In this document: one piece after another, positions 53,981-63,188 of the stretch
Numbering within the stretch: position 1 is the first letter of the stretch
Layout: each line of letters opens with the position of its first letter
NCBI RefSeq assembly: GCF_013364215.1
Contig: NZ_CP054923.1
Span: forward strand, 6,696,001-6,760,000
Origin: Verrucosispora sp. NA02020
GTDB taxonomy: Bacteria > Actinomycetota > Actinomycetes > Mycobacteriales > Micromonosporaceae
Direction: 5' to 3'
DNA: 64,000 nucleotides
The notes under the pieces: model-generated
The model's input: the letters and a program-made list of their open reading frames with translations, nothing else
Told to the model about the DNA's origin: nothing
Database searches by the model: none
Position numbers and translations under genes: made by a program

Positions 53981-54460
53981 CTAGCTCGCCTGCTCGTGGA
54001 CCAGGGCCACCGCGATGCCGGCGAGCCCCTCACCGCGCCCGGTGAAGCCCAGGCCGTCGGTGGTGGCGGCGGAGACGGTGACCGGTGCGCCGACCGCCTC
54101 GGAGAGCACCCGCTCGGCCTCCGCGCGACGCGGGCCGATCTTCGGGCGTACGCCCACCACCTGCACCGACACGTTGCCGATGGCGAAACCGGCGGCCCGG
54201 ACCCGACGGGCCGACTCGGTCAGCAGCGCCACCCCGCTGGCACCCGCCCACTCGGGCTGGTCCACTCCGAAGTTGGCGCCCAGATCACCGAGACCGGCGG
54301 CGGAGAGCAACGCGTTGCAGGCGGCGTGGGCGGCGACGTCCGCGTCCGAGTGCCCCGCCAGGCCATCCTGGTCGGGCCAGTGCAGACCGGCCACCCAACA
54401 CGGCCGACCAGCCTCGAAGGCGTGCACGTCGGTGCCGATGGCCACCCGAGGAACGATCAT
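53981..54460 (-). CDS. ispF: 2-C-methyl-D-erythritol 2,4-cyclodiphosphate synthase
   Basis: The 159-residue enzyme cyclises CDP-methylerythritol phosphate in the MEP isoprenoid pathway. Zinc ligands fit D11 and H13 (GTDVHAFE) and H45 ([10 protein letters not shown]), and [13 protein letters not shown] is the conserved C-terminal loop. The ATG lies 6 nt past TACCCT, so it may have its own leaderless message besides being downstream of ispD by 16 bp. The isoprenoid units could feed the UbiA cluster at 58-62 kb. Confidence 0.95.
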
Positions 54461-54476
54461 GAAACGAGGGTACGCG

Positions 54477-55172
54477 CTAGGCGCCGACGGAGAGCAGGTG
54501 CTCGGCCAGCGCCAGGTCGAAGGGCCGGGTGATCTTCAGGGCGTGATCCGACCCGGGTACGCAGTACACCGGTGTCCCGCGCTTCTCGACCAGCCCGGCA
54601 TCGTCGGTGAGCGGGTCACCGGCGGCGGCGTGCGCGTCGGTCAGCACCGCCCGGCGGAAGCCCTGCGGGGTCTGCACGGCCCGCAACGCGGCCCGGTCGA
54701 CGGTGCCGAGCACCACCTCGCCCGCGTCGACCTCCTTGATCGTGTCGACCACCGGCAGCACGGGGATCACCGCGTCGTGACCGGTCCGGACCGCGGCGGC
54801 CACCGACTCCACGAGTGCCGGTGGGGTCAACGCACGGGCCGCGTCGTGCACCAGGACGATCTCGGGGCCGTCCGGCACGGCGGCCAGGGCGGCGGCCACC
54901 GACGCCTGCCGTTCCGCCCCGCCCGGCACCACCGTCACCGGCGCGACCGGGGCGAGCAGTTCGCGTACCGCCGCGACGTCGGCGACCGGGGCGGCCACCA
55001 CGATCGTGTGGACCGACGGGGCGGCGGCGAGCCGGCGGACCGCGTGCACCAGCAGCGGCTCGCCGGCCAACAGCCGGAGTGCCTTCGGACGGCCGGGCCC
55101 CAGGCGTACGCCGGCACCGGCCGCAGGCACGAGGACCGCGACGTCACCGCGCGGATTCAGCTGCGCGGTCAC
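54477..55172 (-). CDS. ispD: 2-C-methyl-D-erythritol 4-phosphate cytidylyltransferase
   Basis: This 231-residue enzyme joins CTP to methylerythritol phosphate. The CTP-binding loop [18 protein letters not shown], the [13 protein letters not shown] motif, [13 protein letters not shown] and [10 protein letters not shown] match IspD throughout. GTG at 55172 has GAGGA 7 nt upstream. It lies between carD and ispF, a conserved actinobacterial order. A downstream ispF gene on the same strand makes an operon likely. Confidence 0.95.
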
Positions 55173-55228
55173 GTCGCGGTCCTCGATGGTTTCTTCGCTA
55201 CGAAGTGGGTACGACGATGCTGTGCGGA

Positions 55229-55714
55229 CTAGGCCTCGGTCAGCACCTTGTCGAGCAGCGTCTCCGCCTCGTCCTTGGTGCTCTTCTCGGCCAGCGCGAC
55301 CTCGCCGACGAGAATGTCGCGGGCCTTGGCGAGCATCCGCTTCTCACCTGCGGACAACCCGCGCTCCCGCTCCCGGCGCCACAGGTCACGCACGACCTCG
55401 GCCACCTTCAGCGGGTTACCGGAGGCCAGCTTCTCCAGATTTGCCTTGTAACGTCGCGACCAGTTGGTCGGCTCCTCGGTGTGCGGAGCCCGGAGAACGT
55501 CGAAGACCTTGCCGAGACCCTCTTCGCCGACCACCTCGCGCACACCCACGATCTCGGCGTTCTCGGCGGGCACCCGGACCGTCAGGTCACCCTGCGCGAC
55601 CCTCAGGACGAGGTACTGCTTCGGCTCGCCCTTGATGACCCGAGTCTCGATTGCCTCGATGAGTGCGGCCCCGTGGTGGGGGTAAACAACGGTCTCGCCG
55701 ACACTGAAAACCAT
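55229..55714 (-). CDS. carD: CarD family RNA polymerase-binding regulator
   Basis: The 161-residue protein matches actinobacterial CarD in length: an N-terminal RNA polymerase interaction domain ([20 protein letters not shown] then AI) and a helical C-terminal DNA-binding domain with the key W in [20 protein letters not shown]. CarD stabilises the open promoter complex at rRNA and many housekeeping promoters. A purine run AAAGGGG stands 10 nt before the ATG, and a TACCCT box about 28 nt upstream may be its -10. It begins the carD-ispD-ispF group. Confidence 0.95.
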
Positions 55715-56111
55715 AGGTTCGAAACCCCTTTCGCTGTGTCTAGGGTAACACGCTCAGGCACCGATGTCTCACCGCTGTCCTGACCGTTGGCGCAGCTCAG
55801 GGGCCCTGTGAGAGGTATTTCTTCGGCTTGACAGACCGCCCAAACAATGATTTGACCACTCTGCGTAATCAGAAGATGACCCCCGGACGTCGTCCGGTGA
55901 GGAACATCGAAGATCACGACTGGCATCGCACATCAGGGCCTACGCCACCCGCCCTATGATATCCCGCCGTTGCGGAGTGTGGGCAGCGGTAGCGGGACCC
56001 GGGCCTGGTACGGGACGCTGGAGGGTGCCCGCGCACGCGCACCCGCGACGGTCGAGAGCGACCGGCGAGAGGGTGGTGAAGGCAGCGCGGGAACCGTCCG
56101 AGGGGGTGGTG
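55715..56111. other. 397-bp divergent promoter region, no gene
   Basis: Between carD and the plus-strand membrane protein no convincing coding sequence is seen. The left part holds the carD promoter (TACCCT on the minus strand, 55747-55742). On the plus strand TATGAT at 55955-55960 is a plausible -10 without a good -35. Plus-strand frames from 55956 to the chosen start have no family features. Confidence 0.4.
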
Positions 56112-56792
56112 ATGGACAAGGCCGACGCCGACGGTCCCGGGTTGCCCGACCTGCCGCCCGAGTGGGGCCGGGTGGTCGTACCCGACGATGCCGCCGCGCT
56201 CGCGGACGAGGCCGAAGAGCTACGCCGGGAGCTGCGCGGCCGAGCCGCCGGGTACGCCCGCCGGTGGCGTCCGTCCGCGTTGCCCGTGCTCGCGCTGCTG
56301 CTCGCCGTCGTGGCGACCGTCGCCGGTCTGGCCGCCGCCACCTGGCCCCGCACCGGCCGCTCGCCCGGACCGACCACCAGCAGCACCCCCGACCCGGCAC
56401 CGGTCCGGCTCACCGGCCGGTCACTGCCCGCACTGGACCTGGTCGACGGCGGGCAGGCCCCGGTGCCGCTACGCGGCCTGGTGCCGACCGTGGTGCTGCT
56501 GGTCGACGGCTGCGCCTGCCCGGAGCGGGTCGCCGAGGCAGCGGCGGCGGCACCGCCCGGAGTGAGCGTGGTCACCGTCGCCACCACCCGCCCCCGGGCC
56601 GCGCCGCCCGGCACCGCCGTCCGCGCGCTGGCCGACCCGGCCGGCGGCCTCCGCGACTTCCTGCACCTGCCGGCCCGGTCGGACACCGTGACCGCCCTGC
56701 TCGCCGACCGCACCGGCCGGGTCGTCCTGGTCGTGCCCGAGCTCGGCTCCCTCACCGACTACCAGGCCGAACTGGCCCGCCTGGCGGGCTGA
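56112..56792 (+). CDS. Membrane-anchored protein with thioredoxin-like outer domain
   Basis: The 226-residue protein has an acidic cytoplasmic N-terminus, one membrane segment (ALPVLALLLAVVATVAGLAA) and an outer domain. The strand VPTVVLLVDGCACPERV followed by VSVVTVATTR and the late TALLADRTGRVVLVVPELG resembles a thioredoxin/TlpA fold, with CAC in place of CxxC. Redox activity is therefore doubtful. The ATG at 56112 was chosen; GTG codons at 56106 and 56109 are alternatives behind the same GAGG. It converges on the paralog pair. Confidence 0.55.
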   Translation: MDKADADGPGLPDLPPEWGRVVVPDDAAALADEAEELRRELRGRAAGYARRWRPSALPVLALLLAVVATVAGLAAATWPRTGRSPGPTTSSTPDPAPVRLTGRSLPALDLVDGGQAPVPLRGLVPTVVLLVDGCACPERVAEAAAAAPPGVSVVTVATTRPRAAPPGTAVRALADPAGGLRDFLHLPARSDTVTALLADRTGRVVLVVPELGSLTDYQAELARLAG

Positions 56793-56884: not shown

Positions 56885-57574
56885 TCAGGACCGGGAGACC
56901 AGGCGGGCCACCAGTTGGGCCTGCGCCGCCTCGCCGGGATGGAACGTGACCCGCAGCGGGCCACCGGCAGCGGTGATCCCGATCGTCGACACCGCCCCCG
57001 TGCACTCGACCCGGTGTGGGTAGAACGCACCCCGGGCACCGTCGACGGCGACGTTGACGTCGCCCGAGCCGGTGCAACTGACGCGCAACACCAACTGGTC
57101 ACCGTCGGCGGCCCGAGCCGTACGGACCACGGGCTCCTCCGGGCGCAACACCGATCGGTCGAACCACACCACGTTGCCGCCGCCTCCCCGGCGCCGGCCC
57201 GACTCTCCGGTCTCGGGAGCGCTGACGTCACCCGAACCCGCCCCGGCCAGCACGCGCACCTTGTCGCCATCCATTTCGAGCACGAGCGAGGAACCGGTGG
57301 CCGGATCCACCCAGAACGACGCCCCGGTAGCTGGATCCACCCGGAACGTCGCCGTCACCTCTGGTTGGGGCGAGTCGGTACCGCGATACTGCCGGGCCCC
57401 GGTGAGCGGATCCACCCGCCAGCCGGTCGCCTGGGAAACGCTGCTGGGCCCGGCCCCGACACCCGACCCGGTCGGTGCGGTCGCCTGCCACCACACGCCA
57501 CCGGCAGCCAGCGCCACCACCCCCACACCGGCCAGCAGGACACCTCGGAGCCGATGGCGGGGATCGTCATGCAT
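56885..57574 (-). CDS. Membrane-anchored protein of unknown function, paralog 1
   Basis: The 229-residue protein has a short basic start (MHDDPRHRLRGVLLAGVGVV) leading into one membrane helix, then a low-complexity middle with three VDPATGA/S-like repeats and a conserved C-terminal domain (RVSCTGSGDVNVAVDGAR, a second Cys in RVECTGAVST). It is a tandem paralog of the gene at 57602. ATG at 57574 lies 7 nt past TACTCT, so it is probably leaderless with its own promoter. No known family was recognised. Confidence 0.55.
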   Translation of the reverse strand: MHDDPRHRLRGVLLAGVGVVALAAGGVWWQATAPTGSGVGAGPSSVSQATGWRVDPLTGARQYRGTDSPQPEVTATFRVDPATGASFWVDPATGSSLVLEMDGDKVRVLAGAGSGDVSAPETGESGRRRGGGGNVVWFDRSVLRPEEPVVRTARAADGDQLVLRVSCTGSGDVNVAVDGARGAFYPHRVECTGAVSTIGITAAGGPLRVTFHPGEAAQAQLVARLVSRS

Positions 57575-57601
57575 GCCGAGAAGAGTAGAGGCCCGAACGG
57601 C

Positions 57602-58204
57602 TCAGGACGGCGCGATCAGGCGGGCCTCCAGGTGCAACGGCTCCGCACCGGCGGTGGAGAACGAGATGCGTACCGGGCCGCCGGTGCCGGTCACCTCCGT
57701 CGTGGCCACCGCACTGTCGCAGCCGATCGTGATCGGGTCCGCCGCCCGTGCTCCGTCGACCGTCACCAACAGGTCTCCCGGCCCGACGCACCGGAAGCGG
57801 AGCCGGAACGACTCGCCGTACCCGATCGGGGCCTGTCGGACCACCGACGCACCCTCGCTGAGCTTCGTCGACTCGGTCCACACCACGTTCTGGACCTCCG
57901 CCCGTCGTACGCTCCGATGGCCGGCGTCGGACGAGGCGTCCGCCGGGCCGTCGGGCGGCGCGTACGCCCGGTCGGGAGAGACCGAGACGACGGAGCCGGT
58001 GCGCGAGTCGAGTACGCTCATCCTCGCTCCGGGCGCCGTCCGCCACGTCGTCGCGTGCCTGACCGCGGCACCGGAACCGATCGACACCGTGGTGCTCGGG
58101 GTCGGTGCCTGCGTCTGCCACCACCAGCCCCCGAGCACCAGCGCGACCGCACCGATCCCGGCGAGCAGAGCGCCGCGCAGCCGATGAACCGGATCGACGT
58201 GCAT
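57602..58204 (-). CDS. Membrane-anchored protein of unknown function, paralog 2
   Basis: The 200-residue protein parallels its neighbour: MHVDPVHRLRGALLAGIGAV start and helix, a variable linker, then RFRCVGPGDLLVTVDGAR with a second Cys in PITIGCDSAVATT. The two Cys are conserved between the paralogs and may form a disulfide outside the membrane. ATG at 58204 follows TACCCT by 7 nt. Both genes appear to have their own promoters, so the duplication copied the promoter too. Confidence 0.55.
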   Translation of the reverse strand: MHVDPVHRLRGALLAGIGAVALVLGGWWWQTQAPTPSTTVSIGSGAAVRHATTWRTAPGARMSVLDSRTGSVVSVSPDRAYAPPDGPADASSDAGHRSVRRAEVQNVVWTESTKLSEGASVVRQAPIGYGESFRLRFRCVGPGDLLVTVDGARAADPITIGCDSAVATTEVTGTGGPVRISFSTAGAEPLHLEARLIAPS

Positions 58205-58230: not shown

Positions 58231-59280
58231 TCAGATGTGCCGTTCCAGCAGCACCGCGTAGAGAGTCAGACCGGGTCCGAAGGCGAGCATCACCACCCGG
58301 CGGGGCGAGGGCGCGGCCCGCATCAGACGGTCGAGGATCAGCAGCACCGTCGGGGACGAGCAGTTGCCGTGCTCGTCCAGCGTCGCCCGGGACGCCGCCA
58401 ACCCGGTCGGCGGCAGCTCCAGTTCGCGCTCCACCACGTTGAGGATGCGCGGGCCGCCCGGGTGCACCGCCCAGCCGTCCACCCCGGACACCGTGGCGCC
58501 GTGCCGGGCCAGCAGGTCCTCCACCAACCCGCGTACGTGGGTCGACAGCACCTGCGGCACCTTCGGCGAGAGCCCCATCCGGAAGCCGGTGTCGGTCACG
58601 TCCCACGTCATGTGGTCGGCGGTGGAGGTGTCGGTGACCGAGGTGACCTCGCGTACCGCGTACCCCCGGCCACCGGGCAGGAGCACGGCGGCGACGGCGG
58701 CGTCCGAGAAGAGCGCGTGGGAGACGATCTGCTGGGTGTCCACCCGGGCCGACGAGGGTTGCAGGTGCAGGCTGGTCAACTCGGCGCAGAGCAGCAGCGC
58801 CGGGCGGCCCCGGGAGACCACGAAGTCACTCGCCGCACCCAACCCGGGCAGGGCCGCGTAGCACCCCATGTGACCGACGAACATCCGCTGCGTCGTCGGG
58901 GACATACCCAGGTCACGGGCGAGCAGGATGTCCAGCCCCGGGGTGGCGTACCCGGTGCAGGAGCAGACCACGAAAAGACCGACGTCCCCGGCGTCCAGGC
59001 CGGCCGAGGTCAGCGCACGGCCGACCGCCTCCTTGCCCAGCGGCAGCGCCTCCACCTGGTAGCGGCGCATCCGCCGCTCGGTCGGCCAGTCCGAGACGTC
59101 CTCGATCAGCGGACTCACCGCCGCCTGCCGGCAGGTCACCCCCGAGTTCGCGAAGATCCGCTCGGCGAGCGCCCGGGTGGTGCCGGAGTAGTGCCGGGAG
59201 AAGAACTTGTCCCATAGTTCCTGCTGGTCGGCCGAGGGCGGATGAGCCGTACCCACACCCGCGATCACCGGTACGGTCAC
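58231..59280 (-). CDS. Type III polyketide synthase
   Basis: The 349-residue enzyme has the catalytic triad C140 (VGHMGCYAALPGL), H273 (WAVHPGGPRIL) and N306 (DEHGNCSSPT) and the C-terminal GPGLTLYAVLL. It builds a short polyketide from acyl- and malonyl-CoA and cyclises it, here probably an alkylresorcinol or alkylpyrone. The GTG at 59280 has GGAAGG 7 nt upstream; the open frame extends further only as overlap with the neighbour. It lies 34 bp after the flavoprotein gene, in an apparent operon with it and the methyltransferase. Confidence 0.92.
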   Translation of the reverse strand: MTVPVIAGVGTAHPPSADQQELWDKFFSRHYSGTTRALAERIFANSGVTCRQAAVSPLIEDVSDWPTERRMRRYQVEALPLGKEAVGRALTSAGLDAGDVGLFVVCSCTGYATPGLDILLARDLGMSPTTQRMFVGHMGCYAALPGLGAASDFVVSRGRPALLLCAELTSLHLQPSSARVDTQQIVSHALFSDAAVAAVLLPGGRGYAVREVTSVTDTSTADHMTWDVTDTGFRMGLSPKVPQVLSTHVRGLVEDLLARHGATVSGVDGWAVHPGGPRILNVVERELELPPTGLAASRATLDEHGNCSSPTVLLILDRLMRAAPSPRRVVMLAFGPGLTLYAVLLERHI

Positions 59281-59314
59281 CGTCCCACCTTCCGCTCGCT
59301 CGGGCTCCTCACGC

Positions 59315-60478
59315 TCACCAACGAGGAGCCGACCCGTCACGGTCCGGGTCACCGCCGAGCGCGGCGATCCCCAACCAGTCGGCGCAGACATCGGAGGTGG
59401 CCGGGTGCAGTGATCCGCAACGGGCGTCCCGGTAGAGGCGCTCCAACGGGTGACCACGCCGGGTGGCGGAGGTGCCGGCCGCCTCCAGCATGGACGCGGC
59501 AACCTCCGCCGCAGTCGTACCGGCCAGCAGCTTGGCCCGCCACACCCAGCGGTTCGTCTCGGCGTCACCCGGCGCCTCGTCCACCCGACGGGCCGCCTCG
59601 GTGACCGCGAGCTGCGCCGCCGCCACCGCCGCGTCGGCCCGCCCCAACCGGGCACGGACCGCCGGCAGATGCGTCAGACCCCGGGCGTGCAGGTGTTCCG
59701 CCGCCGCGTCGATCGACGCCTGCGCCACCCCGACGTAGACGGCGGCGTAGCTGGCCACCAGCCAGTGCGGCATCAGCTGGGCGACCACCAGGGCCAGGCC
59801 CTCCACCCCGCCGAGCAGCCGGTCGGCGGGCACGGTGACGTCCAGGTGCAGGTCGTGCGAGGCGGTCGCGCGCATGCCGAGCGCGTCCCAGGTCGGCTCG
59901 ACGGTCAGACCGTCACCGGCCGGGACCAGGAACTGCGAGACCACCGACGGGTCGGCCGCGCTCCGGGCCGCCACCAGGTAACCGTCGGCGTGACCGGCAC
60001 CCGAGCAGAAGGTCTTGCTGCCCTTGATCCGCCAGCCGCCGTCGACCGGCTCGTAGACCGTGGTGAGCTGGGACAACCGGGCACCGGCGCCGCGCTCGCT
60101 CATCGCGACCGCGTACCACGCGCCCTCGGCCGCCGCCCGCAGCAACCGGTCGCGGGCGGCGAGCGCCTCCTCCGGTACGCCCAACGCCTCGGCCAGTTCC
60201 TCGGTGACCGCGCCCAGGGCGCCGGTGACCGAGGCGTGCATGTTGAACACCAGCGCCGTGGCGCCGTTGCCCCGCGCCAGTTCGGTGGCGACGGCCGCGT
60301 ACCCGGCGAACGTCGCCCCGATGCCGCCCAGCTCGGCGGGGACCATCAGCCCGAACAGCCCGGCCGCACCGAGATCGGCGAAGTCGTCGACCGGGAACGA
60401 ACCGTCCCGGTCGTGCTCCGCCGCCCGGGCGGCCAGCCGGGGCGACAGCCTCCGCGCGGCGTCCCACGCTTCACTCAT
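59315..60478 (-). CDS. Acyl-CoA-dehydrogenase-fold flavoprotein of the type III PKS cluster
   Basis: The 387-residue protein has the three-part ACAD fold: helical start (AAGLFGLMVPAELGGIGATF), a middle beta domain (VAMSERGAGARLSQLTTVYE; KGSKTFCSGAGHADG) and a C-terminal helical bundle. The usual catalytic E in YEGT is replaced: the end reads RDARCGSLHPATSDVCADWL. This pattern is shared with ACAD-fold hydroxylases and monooxygenases, so ring hydroxylation of the polyketide product is likelier than fatty-acid oxidation. The ATG overlaps the stop of an 80-bp-repeat mini-ORF (ATGA). Confidence 0.8.
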   Translation of the reverse strand: MSEAWDAARRLSPRLAARAAEHDRDGSFPVDDFADLGAAGLFGLMVPAELGGIGATFAGYAAVATELARGNGATALVFNMHASVTGALGAVTEELAEALGVPEEALAARDRLLRAAAEGAWYAVAMSERGAGARLSQLTTVYEPVDGGWRIKGSKTFCSGAGHADGYLVAARSAADPSVVSQFLVPAGDGLTVEPTWDALGMRATASHDLHLDVTVPADRLLGGVEGLALVVAQLMPHWLVASYAAVYVGVAQASIDAAAEHLHARGLTHLPAVRARLGRADAAVAAAQLAVTEAARRVDEAPGDAETNRWVWRAKLLAGTTAAEVAASMLEAAGTSATRRGHPLERLYRDARCGSLHPATSDVCADWLGIAALGGDPDRDGSAPRW

Positions 60479-60558
60479 GCCGGCACTCCGCTGCGCTGCG
60501 TGCCGCCATGAGACACCCACGCACCGAGCCGACGACTCGCTCGCTGACGCTCGCTCAT
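60475..60558 (-). CDS. Leader mini-ORF, repeat copy 1
   Basis: 27 codons beginning MSERQRASRRLGAWVSHGG. Its TGA overlaps the start of the flavoprotein gene (ATGA), and its own ATG overlaps the stop of the next upstream copy. It lies within a tandem repeat; translation is unproven. Confidence 0.35.
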   Translation of the reverse strand: MSERQRASRRLGAWVSHGGTQRSGVPA

Positions 60559-60635
60559 GCCGGCACTCCGCTACGCTCCGCGCCGCCATGAGACACCCAC
60601 GCACCGAGCCGACGACTCGCTCGCTGACGCTCGCT
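60476..60635 (-). repeat. Two tandem 80-bp repeats upstream of the flavoprotein gene
   Basis: Units 60476-60555 and 60556-60635 differ at only a few bases near TGCGCTGCGTGC versus TACGCTCCGCGC. On the minus strand each begins ATGAGCGAGCGTCAGCGAGC. The flavoprotein gene start takes the place of a third unit. It is related to the repeat before the class I fumarase. Confidence 0.85.
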
Positions 60636-60638
60636 CAT
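60555..60638 (-). CDS. Leader mini-ORF, repeat copy 2
   Basis: A near-identical 27-codon ORF, one unit upstream. It ends in ATGA overlapping copy 1, so the two would be read in series before the flavoprotein. Confidence 0.3.
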   Translation of the reverse strand: MSERQRASRRLGAWVSHGGAERSGVPA

Positions 60639-60679
60639 GGAACCCCCTTCTCGGCTTCCCTTACCCCCGCCCGGACCGG

Positions 60680-61417
60680 CTACCCGCCGTACACCCCGCG
60701 TCCCTGGTAGAGCACGGCCGGCGAACCGGTCGGCACGATCCGCGGCGTCTGGCCGGGTGGGGTCGCCGCGCCGCGTACCTGCCGGAGCAGCCAGCGCAGC
60801 AGGCCCGGCACCGCCGGACGGACACCCCGGACCCGCAGGTCCACACCGTGCAGGGCGCACTCGGCCACCAGCTCACGATGGTCCACGAACAACCGTGGGT
60901 CGTGGATGCCGCGCGGCACGGTCGGCAGCCGTTCGGCGATGCGGACCGCGACCAGCCGACACAGCGCGGTGTCGTTGAGCGTGTCCAGCACCAGCAGCCC
61001 GCCGGGACGCAGCAGGCGACACGCCTGCGCCACCACGGCCCGCCAGTCGGGTACGTGTTCCAGCAGCTCACCGGCGGCCACCACGTCGGCGCAGCCGTCG
61101 ACGAGGGGCACCCGGGTGGCGTCGCCGTTGACCACCGTCACGCCGTGCGCGGCGGCCTGGTTCAGCGCGGAGCGGGTCAGGTCCACCCCCACGTGCCGGT
61201 AGCCCTTGCCGACCAGGTGCGGGGCGAGCAGACCGGCGCCGCACCCGAGGTCGACCAGGAGCGCGTCGGGCCGCGTCGCCGGTGGGACCATCGCCGCCCG
61301 CGCCTCGGCCAGCCAGTGCAGCATGGCGAACGCGCCGTCCGGTCGCCACCATTCGCCGGCCAGGTCGTCGTACTGACGCGGGTCGTTGCGGGGCAGGCTC
61401 AGGCCGGCGTCACGCAT
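60680..61417 (-). CDS. UbiG-like SAM-dependent methyltransferase
   Basis: This 245-residue class I methyltransferase starts with NDPRQYDDLAGEWWRPDGAF, typical of UbiG-type O-methyltransferases, then the SAM motif LLVDLGCGAGLLAPHL, acidic GVDLTRSAL, VNGDATRVPL and the post-motif LRPGGLLVLDTLND. It likely methylates a phenolic hydroxyl of the polyketide-derived ring. The ATG at 61417 stands 45 bp from the divergent prenyltransferase gene. It probably heads the three-gene operon methyltransferase - flavoprotein - polyketide synthase, although the tandem repeats separate it from the flavoprotein gene. Confidence 0.88.
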   Translation of the reverse strand: MRDAGLSLPRNDPRQYDDLAGEWWRPDGAFAMLHWLAEARAAMVPPATRPDALLVDLGCGAGLLAPHLVGKGYRHVGVDLTRSALNQAAAHGVTVVNGDATRVPLVDGCADVVAAGELLEHVPDWRAVVAQACRLLRPGGLLVLDTLNDTALCRLVAVRIAERLPTVPRGIHDPRLFVDHRELVAECALHGVDLRVRGVRPAVPGLLRWLLRQVRGAATPPGQTPRIVPTGSPAVLYQGRGVYGG

Positions 61418-61462
61418 TCACCGAGCGTGGCACGACTAGCCGGTAACGACCAGACTTCCGTT

Positions 61463-62302
61463 ATGTCGTCCACGGTGTTAGGGCTGGTCAGAGCGAGCCA
61501 TCCGGAACCGACGGCGGCCGTCACCACAGTGGCCGGTCTGCTCGCGGCCGGCGTCGGGCATCCGCCCGGCGGGATCGCCGTGGTGGCGCTGACCGTGGCG
61601 GCGAGCCAGTTCGCGGTGGGGTGGACGAACGACGCGCTCGACGCCGACCGGGACGCCGCGGTGGGGCGTACCGACAAGCCGGTGGCCGCCGGTGCGGTCA
61701 GCCGGCGGGTCGTCGCGGTGGCCGCCGTGCTGGCCGCCGCCACCACCGTGGCGCTGGCCCTGACCACGAACCCGGCCGCAGCCCTCTGCGCCGTCGTCGC
61801 GCTGGTCTCGGCCCTGCTGTACGACTGGCCGCTCAAGTGGACCCCGGTCTCGGTGCTGCCGTACGCGATCTCCTTCGGCGCGCTGCCCGCCTTCGTGGTG
61901 CTGGCGCTGCCCGGCGCGCCGACGCCGCCGGGGTGGCTGGTCACCGCAGCGGCCCTGCTCGGCGCCGGTGCGCACTTCGCCAACGTGCTGCCCGATTTCG
62001 CCGACGATGCCCGGACCGGGGTGCGCGGTCTGCCGCACCGGGTGGGTCCGGCGGGCAGCCGGGCGGCCGCCGTCGGGCTGCTCGTCGCGGCGACCGTCAC
62101 GCTGGTGCTGGGTCCGCCCGGTCCGCCGTCCGGCCTGGGCCTCGCGGCGGTCGTCGCCGCCGTGGTCATCCTGGTTCTCGCCTGGTACGCCGGACGCACC
62201 GCCGACCGACCCGGCGCCCGCTCGGCGGCGGCCTTCCGGGCGGTCATGCTGGTCGCCCTGATCGATGTCGTCCTGCTGGTCACGAGCGGTCGACTGGTCT
62301 GA
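61463..62302 (+). CDS. UbiA family prenyltransferase
   Basis: The 279-residue membrane enzyme transfers a prenyl chain to an aromatic or phenolic acceptor. The first Asp-rich motif NDALDADRD is at 56-64 and the second, LPDFADDARTG, near 175-185; about eight to nine membrane helices are visible. ATG at 61463; the open frame upstream is a shadow of the methyltransferase gene. It is divergent from that gene and probably co-regulated through the 45-bp gap. The prenyl donor could be supplied by the MEP pathway, including ispD and ispF in this window. Confidence 0.9.
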   Translation: MSSTVLGLVRASHPEPTAAVTTVAGLLAAGVGHPPGGIAVVALTVAASQFAVGWTNDALDADRDAAVGRTDKPVAAGAVSRRVVAVAAVLAAATTVALALTTNPAAALCAVVALVSALLYDWPLKWTPVSVLPYAISFGALPAFVVLALPGAPTPPGWLVTAAALLGAGAHFANVLPDFADDARTGVRGLPHRVGPAGSRAAAVGLLVAATVTLVLGPPGPPSGLGLAAVVAAVVILVLAWYAGRTADRPGARSAAAFRAVMLVALIDVVLLVTSGRLV

Positions 62303-62444: not shown

Positions 62445-63188
62445 GTGACGCGCTCGATCAGGGGTTCCCGGCGGGCTGCCGTACTGCTGCCCGGGATCGC
62501 GGCGGCAGCCGGGATGCTGCTGCTGTCGGGATGCGGCACCGGTCAGATCTCCGAGACGGCGAACAAGGTCCCGTCGATCCAGGGCGTCGACCTCCAGGCC
62601 GAGGACGGCCGGTACGGCGTCCGCAGCGTGCTGATCTCGTACCCCGGTGTCGAGGGCTACCAGGCCGGCGACGACGCGATCCTGAACGCGCTCTTCTACA
62701 ACGACTCGCCCGACCCGGTCACCGTGACCGTCACCTCGTCGGACGCCCGCGAGGTCGTGCTCACCACGGTCCAGGCCGCGACCAGCCCCTCGCCCAGCGC
62801 CTCGCCCTCGCCGACCGGCTCCCCGTCGCCGGACCCGTCCCCGGAGGGCACCCCCTCCCCGGGCAGTTCCCCGTCGCCGGACGAGACGCCCTCCCCCGAC
62901 GAGACGCCCTCCCCGGACGAGACCGAGTCGTCGGCCGGCGGCCCGGCCCGGATCGAGATCCCGCCGCTGAGCTACGTGCAGCTCAACACCGAGGGCGAGC
63001 AGGTGCTCCAGCTCCTCGGGCTCAACTCGGCACTGCTCGCCGGTCAGAACGTCACGATCAGCTTCGACTTCGGCGACGGCAACACGATCACCAGCCCGGC
63101 CCCGGTGGCCGTGCCGCTCAGCCCGGCTCCGCCGCCGTCGCCGATCATCGAGCGGCACACCGAGTTCGAGGGCGAAGGCGGGCACTGA
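62445..63188 (+). CDS. Secreted lipoprotein of unknown function
   Basis: The 247-residue protein has a lipoprotein signal (AAVLLPGIAAAAGMLLLSGC) with the lipobox LSGC, so it is lipid-anchored outside the membrane. A beta-rich domain (VDLQAEDGRYGVRSVLISYP, then VTVTVTSSDAREVVL) is interrupted by a Ser/Pro-rich linker with a DETPSP repeat (SPDETPSPDETPSPDET), followed by IEIPPLSYVQLNTEGEQVL and VTISFDFGDG, an arrangement reminiscent of the PCuAC copper-chaperone fold, but without clear Met/His ligands. GTG at 62445 has AGGAGG 6 nt upstream. A lipoprotein before radA is common in related genomes. Confidence 0.7.
   Translation: MTRSIRGSRRAAVLLPGIAAAAGMLLLSGCGTGQISETANKVPSIQGVDLQAEDGRYGVRSVLISYPGVEGYQAGDDAILNALFYNDSPDPVTVTVTSSDAREVVLTTVQAATSPSPSASPSPTGSPSPDPSPEGTPSPGSSPSPDETPSPDETPSPDETESSAGGPARIEIPPLSYVQLNTEGEQVLQLLGLNSALLAGQNVTISFDFGDGNTITSPAPVAVPLSPAPPPSPIIERHTEFEGEGGH

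Follow-up and report, generated by a model that had tools for sequence, protein, structure and literature searches.

We analyzed a window of 64,000 nucleotides from Verrucosispora sp. NA02020 (G000:C1:6696001-6760000; genome size 7.28 Mb), in which positions 58231-62302 are filled by four intact frames encoding a type III polyketide synthase (PKS), a flavoprotein with an acyl-CoA dehydrogenase (ACAD) fold, a UbiG-like methyltransferase (MT) and a UbiA prenyltransferase. This block is very probably an orthologue of the agq/los clusters, with a four-step route to 6-alkyl-4-O-dihydrogeranyl-2-methoxyhydroquinones in which hydroxylation would be optional. It is an ordinary member of this already known group of phenolic-lipid clusters, and a hydroquinone of the type just named is the most likely product. 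The four genes, for which we chose starts shorter than those of the longest open reading frames (PKS 58231-59655, flavoprotein to 60604, UbiA from 60557), are as follows:

58231..59280, minus strand: type III polyketide synthase, AgqA/LosA orthologue (349 residues; Pfam; 89% identity to the PKS of the M. endolithica losA locus, L194, and 72% to that of the presumed A. missouriensis locus, L197)
59315..60478, minus strand: flavoprotein of the acyl-CoA dehydrogenase fold, likely a flavin monooxygenase acting as ring hydroxylase (387 residues; Pfam, profile alignment to the Protein Data Bank (PDB), predicted model and fold comparison)
60680..61417, minus strand: UbiG-like O-methyltransferase (245 residues; Pfam, NCBIfam)
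61463..62302, plus strand: UbiA-family prenyltransferase, divergent from the methyltransferase gene with 45 bp between them (279 residues; Pfam, NCBIfam)

All four members of the gene set named in the original prediction are present and belong clearly to their Pfam families, with matches above the cut-off to the N- and C-terminal Chal_sti_synt domains (PKS), the N, M and C domains of Acyl-CoA_dh, Methyltransf_11 and UbiA. The four genes are real and not a chance arrangement, since their orthologues occur in the same order in relatives. The predicted correspondence with the gene content of the Actinoplanes (agq) cluster was also borne out, as both the gene set and its order recur in L197, at 60–81% identity. 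Residues C140, H273 and N306 of the PKS, which we take to be the Cys-His-Asn catalytic triad of type III PKSs, were invariant in two alignments of 61 and 15 rows, and the type III PKS C-terminal family has a single match in the whole genome.

Neither low identity to alkylresorcinol synthases nor a UbiA clade of the menaquinone or heme type, both of which would have refuted the original prediction, was found. The PKS is 89% identical to that of the losA locus, and a menaquinone or heme UbiA was rejected because the protein scored far below the NCBIfam cut-offs for heme O synthesis (36.6 vs. 210.3) and for DHNA polyprenyltransferases (28.7 vs. 264). Pieces of other genes in the same genome pass the heme O (365.5 vs. 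246) and MqnP (420.3 vs. 420) cut-offs. The MT reached 94.9 bits against the NCBIfam UbiG profile, which is below its cut-off of 102.95. A promoter scan found none, and a single terminator-like site was within chance expectation.

The flavoprotein as a candidate ring hydroxylase

Profile alignment to the PDB, a predicted model and fold comparison all indicated an ACAD fold without the glutamate of dehydrogenases of the MCAD/SCAD type. The position is occupied by Pro359 in the flavoprotein and by proline in 170 of 170 aligned rows, and the glutamate of 4n5f, which aligns there, is presumably the catalytic one of acyl-CoA dehydrogenases of this type. A classical acyl-CoA dehydrogenase with its glutamate at the MCAD/SCAD position was rejected on these grounds; isovaleryl-CoA dehydrogenase has an alternative glutamate position. 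The fold is shared with the ACAD-fold flavin monooxygenases DszC, p-hydroxyphenylacetate hydroxylase C2, XiaF and 5z8t, and the proline at the dehydrogenase glutamate position fits a flavin monooxygenase, although it is no proof of one.

The similarity to these monooxygenases is remote in the profile alignments (5z8t, 159 bits; DszC, about 101; hydroxylase C2, 66.5; XiaF, 62), and true dehydrogenases lie in the same score range (4n5f, 124 bits). In the fold comparison of the flavoprotein model, monooxygenases were not ranked above dehydrogenases. The original prediction had suggested that the ACAD-fold flavoprotein might do the hydroxylation in a new way; the flavoprotein is not a novelty of the window, because the protein is part of the known cluster and is 81% identical in the presumed A. 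missouriensis locus.

The start of the flavoprotein gene and its upstream region are spanned by a tandem duplication of 80 bp (60471..60630; 95% identical). A 25-base piece of this repeat has two copies in the genome, both at 60471-60630, and was found in none of 20 relatives. The repeat is therefore unlikely to be a dispersed element.

Proposed pathway

The synthase would join three malonyl-CoA units to a long-chain acyl starter and so form a 5-alkylresorcinol, as its identity to the losA-locus PKS suggests. Acting as a flavin monooxygenase, the ACAD-fold protein would then hydroxylate the ring beside the alkyl chain, converting the resorcinol into a hydroquinone. The UbiG-like enzyme is predicted to O-methylate one resorcinol oxygen, and the UbiA enzyme to O-prenylate the other, a reaction which has been reported for the Actinoplanes cluster and which we infer for the window. 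Across the family the hydroxylation step would be optional, and a strain without the flavoprotein would make the same ether lipid minus the hydroquinone hydroxyl.

Distribution in genus, family and order

Two observations went beyond the original prediction: the block stands at one place across most sampled genera of the family, and of its genes the flavoprotein is the one most frequently absent. Within the genus, a synthase match was detected in 151 of 151 genomes, and MT and UbiA were each detected in 148 (at least 78% and at least 71% identity, respectively; several partly covered). The remaining three genomes were the same for both proteins (G010, G023 and G052), with contigs ending there; apparent losses in these and in G076, where the synthase copy is cut, reflect contigs that end inside or beside the cluster. 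The flavoprotein was full-length or nearly so, at 88% identity or more, in 136 genomes, a contig-edge fragment in G010 and divided over two frames in G050 (L073), and an orthologue was absent from 13 (G006, G007, G011, G035, G046, G071, G100, G104, G131, G132, G137, G143 and G150). All 13 flavoprotein-less loci showed a gap of 98–305 bp between synthase and MT genes. Flavoprotein remnants, covering 9–12% of the gene, were detected in L058 and L059.

Among 200 genomes of the family, genus included, the synthase was found at E <= 1e-90 in 175, weak matches only in 21 and none in four. The locus is hence not universal in the family, since an orthologue-level synthase is lacking in 25 of the 200 genomes and throughout 10 of 44 genus codes (g3, g9, g13, g14, g16, g17, g19, g33, g39 and g42). 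Within 40 loci of other genera, chosen from genomes with strong synthase matches (L077-L116), carD accompanied the synthase in 36 and the flavoprotein was missing in eight (L078, L082, L083, L099, L100, L103, L110 and L115). A further set of 80 named loci included five in which it was missing between synthase and MT (L140 of M. mirobrigensis, L147, L149, L154 of Actinoplanes regularis and L176 of M. rubida), others being cut by contig ends. The reverse of the usual loss was observed in L136 (A. rectilineatus), where synthase and flavoprotein were kept and MT and UbiA were not found at the locus; in L099, no UbiA was found and the block was rearranged.

In 298 genomes of the order, synthases of about 55% identity or more occurred in at least nine of 15 other family codes. 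Eighteen loci outside the family were fetched, some of them on short contigs, and carD shared a stretch with the synthase in eight (L242-L248 and L253). Five loci of family code f10 were without the flavoprotein. The stretches fetched for three f16 loci (L249, L250 and L259) paired synthase and MT at a distance from carD and showed neither flavoprotein nor UbiA; this pair is possibly a minimal version of the cluster. In two loci from families whose sampled genomes have no such synthase, L260 and L261, ispF-ispD-carD is followed after about 300 bp by the lipoprotein gene and radA, and the block is absent.

Recurrent absence of the flavoprotein

A quick tree of synthase, MT and prenyltransferase comprised 155 rows (150 different, with some strains present twice under two loci), 118 with and 36 without the flavoprotein, the two-frame copy L073 not being counted; eight of 162 loci without a usable synthase or MT, L136 included, were excluded. 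Flavoprotein presence needs 14 changes on this tree, of which branches with SH-aLRT values of at least 95 enforce 12; the mean for shuffled data was about 33. While the tree alone cannot separate gain from loss, loss is favoured because of the remnants in L058 and L059. Pairwise distances of the four proteins were correlated in the 115 rows with all four genes (r 0.80–0.94; best of 300 permutations, 0.22), which argues that the flavoprotein has for the most part shared the descent of the other three. A recently acquired cluster was rejected in view of this correlation and of the shared place in most relatives.

Selection was assessed by the ratio of nonsynonymous to synonymous substitution rates (dN/dS), as medians in seven small groups that we picked from the tree, two without and five with the flavoprotein. 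For the PKS, values were 0.31 and 0.20 in the groups without and 0.09–0.18 in those with the flavoprotein; corresponding values were 0.23 and 0.24 vs. 0.12–0.24 for MT and 0.30 and 0.39 vs. 0.12–0.42 for UbiA. The flavoprotein itself gave 0.06–0.11. The controls ispD (0.17 and 0.19 vs. 0.09–0.19) and ispF (0.14 and 0.22 vs. 0.07–0.12) were treated likewise, and radA ranged from 0.03 to 0.12 over all seven groups. The remaining cluster genes are thus under purifying selection in the two flavoprotein-less groups tested. The synthase was looser in both of them, in the first also relative to ispD, which may reflect relaxed selection there.

Since the flavoprotein is missing in 13 of 151 genomes of the genus, its presence requires at least 12 changes and the other genes are mostly kept and, in the two groups tested, constrained, the hydroxyl of the hydroquinone can probably be regarded as an optional addition. 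A broader reading, which we hold only tentatively and at somewhat less than even chances, is that the block is a lipid locus which Micromonospora, most sampled genera of its family and some sister families have inherited for the most part vertically, at a site flanked by carD and the lipoprotein-radA pair, rather than a typical secondary-metabolite cluster, with synthase, MT and prenyltransferase as the core and the hydroxylase as a decoration subject to a dozen or more changes, mostly losses. The genomes and genus codes of the family without an orthologue-level synthase weigh against it, as do L136 and L099, which lost other genes of the block. If it is true, what is conserved would be the function of an ether lipid that is capped and redox-inactive, with the hydroquinone as an option of particular lineages. 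The function of the Actinoplanes lipids is called enigmatic in the available part of PMC10896814. A locus at a fixed place with many natural one-step absences offers ready-made species comparisons for the role of the flavoprotein and the importance of the hydroquinone, in which species with and without the gene should differ by one hydroxyl.

Alternative explanations

Several observations weigh against the proposed route. At the residue before Pro359, where a histidine would presumably correspond to that of DszC, 110 of the 170 rows have His and the other 60 Gln, and a DszC-like histidine is therefore not a general feature. The cluster and flank genes scanned included neither a geranyl reductase nor a flavin reductase of the kind that supplies ACAD-fold monooxygenases with reduced flavin. 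Finally, in the losA experiment, as far as the available part of PMC7587189 describes it, only undecorated resorcinols were obtained. The second of these points also bears on the view that the ACAD-fold protein works on the isoprenoid or the acyl part and not on the ring, by reducing geranyl to dihydrogeranyl or oxidizing the acyl starter, with the ring hydroxylase encoded elsewhere. The known agq product bears a dihydrogeranyl group (PMC3569393, in the part available), for which the scanned genes provide no other reductase; acryloyl-CoA reductase and acyl-CoA dehydrogenase profiles match the flavoprotein, and 5gj7, one of its closest PDB relatives, is titled a putative acyl-CoA dehydrogenase. 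However, all 18 NCBIfam matches of the protein, these profiles among them, are far below the cut-off, 5z8t, titled a flavin-containing monooxygenase, is as close by sequence as 5gj7, and the glutamate is replaced by proline throughout. We consider this view unlikely.

The losA experiment could also be taken to mean that the end products of the cluster are antibiotics, namely plain alkylresorcinols like the loseolamycins, the neighbouring genes being unrelated. Activation of losA yielded loseolamycins, alkylresorcinols active against B. subtilis (PMC7587189, as partly available). Yet the promoter was set before losA, and since losA is the last of three co-directed genes, MT and ACAD may not have been expressed, which may explain the undecorated products. 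Moreover, the same source, in its available part, states that loseolamycins were not seen in the M. endolithica wild type, and the four genes mostly hold their order across the family, co-vary in distance and match agq, which makes plain resorcinols an improbable end product. The silence of the wild type, together with flavoprotein genes that are absent or interrupted in some species, might instead point to a dead or decaying cluster. This is contradicted by the four intact frames in the window, by a synthase in all 151 genomes of the genus and by dN/dS medians that are low for all four genes in the seven groups when set against ispD, ispF and radA, and we regard decay as very improbable indeed.

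Neighbouring genes and other observations

The genes around the cluster in the window are:

53981..55714, minus strand: ispF and ispD of the methylerythritol phosphate isoprenoid pathway, and carD, in conserved order (Pfam, synteny)
55956..56792, plus strand: conserved protein between carD and PKS, thioredoxin-like from reading of the sequence, with no Pfam match
56885..58204, minus strand: two paralogous small membrane proteins between carD and the synthase (56885-57574 and 57602-58204), the second weakly DUF6023-like, below the cut-off
62445..63188, plus strand: lipoprotein from reading of the sequence, with no Pfam match, followed by radA
from 63235: radA (Pfam domains and the table in PMC7587189)

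For the small membrane protein pair, both queries match one stretch or nothing in most fetched relatives. Elsewhere in the genome, identical stretches (L262, L263, L268 and L269) were observed 149,613 bp apart, G000:C1:252001-271999 being equal to 401614-421612 (19,999 of 19,999 bases) and 300000-317074 to 449613-466687 (17,075 of 17,075 bases), ending near 317,074. The comparison covered these two pairs of segments; they represent either a real duplication or an assembly artefact.

Comparison with known systems

According to the available part of PMC3569393, A. missouriensis 431T makes 6-alkyl-4-O-dihydrogeranyl-2-methoxyhydroquinones. The locus presumed to be that of this strain (L197, G280) contains all four genes in the order of the window, between ispF-ispD-carD and radA, with identities of 72% (PKS), 81% (ACAD), 60% (MT) and 60% (UbiA). 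In Phytohabitans, agqB-agqD are assigned to the three locus tags that follow agqA in P. suffuscus (PMC7692728, in part), and the three genes after the synthase in the P. suffuscus locus L187 encode ACAD, MT and UbiA. From this parallel in gene order, we infer that agqB is the ACAD-fold gene. Other reports mention the cluster in all Micromonospora strains studied (PMC5765111) and agq-like clusters in further strains (PMC8698034, PMC9967187 and PMC9181873), and PMC4044012 cites a membrane-bound enzyme from a rare actinomycete that O-prenylates a small polyketide.

Another of the closest known systems is the losA locus of M. endolithica, for which Table 1 of PMC7587189, in the part available, gives the order DisA, RadA, hypothetical, UbiA, methyltransferase, acyl-CoA dehydrogenase, losA, two hypotheticals, CarD, IspD and IspF. 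Genes, order and flanks (ispF-ispD-carD on one side, radA on the other) agree with the window, and the locus of M. endolithica JCM 12677 (L194) shows identities of 89% (PKS), 92% (ACAD), 86% (MT) and 77% (UbiA). The two loci differ by species-level sequence differences and by the 80-bp duplication, which in the window lies before the flavoprotein gene.
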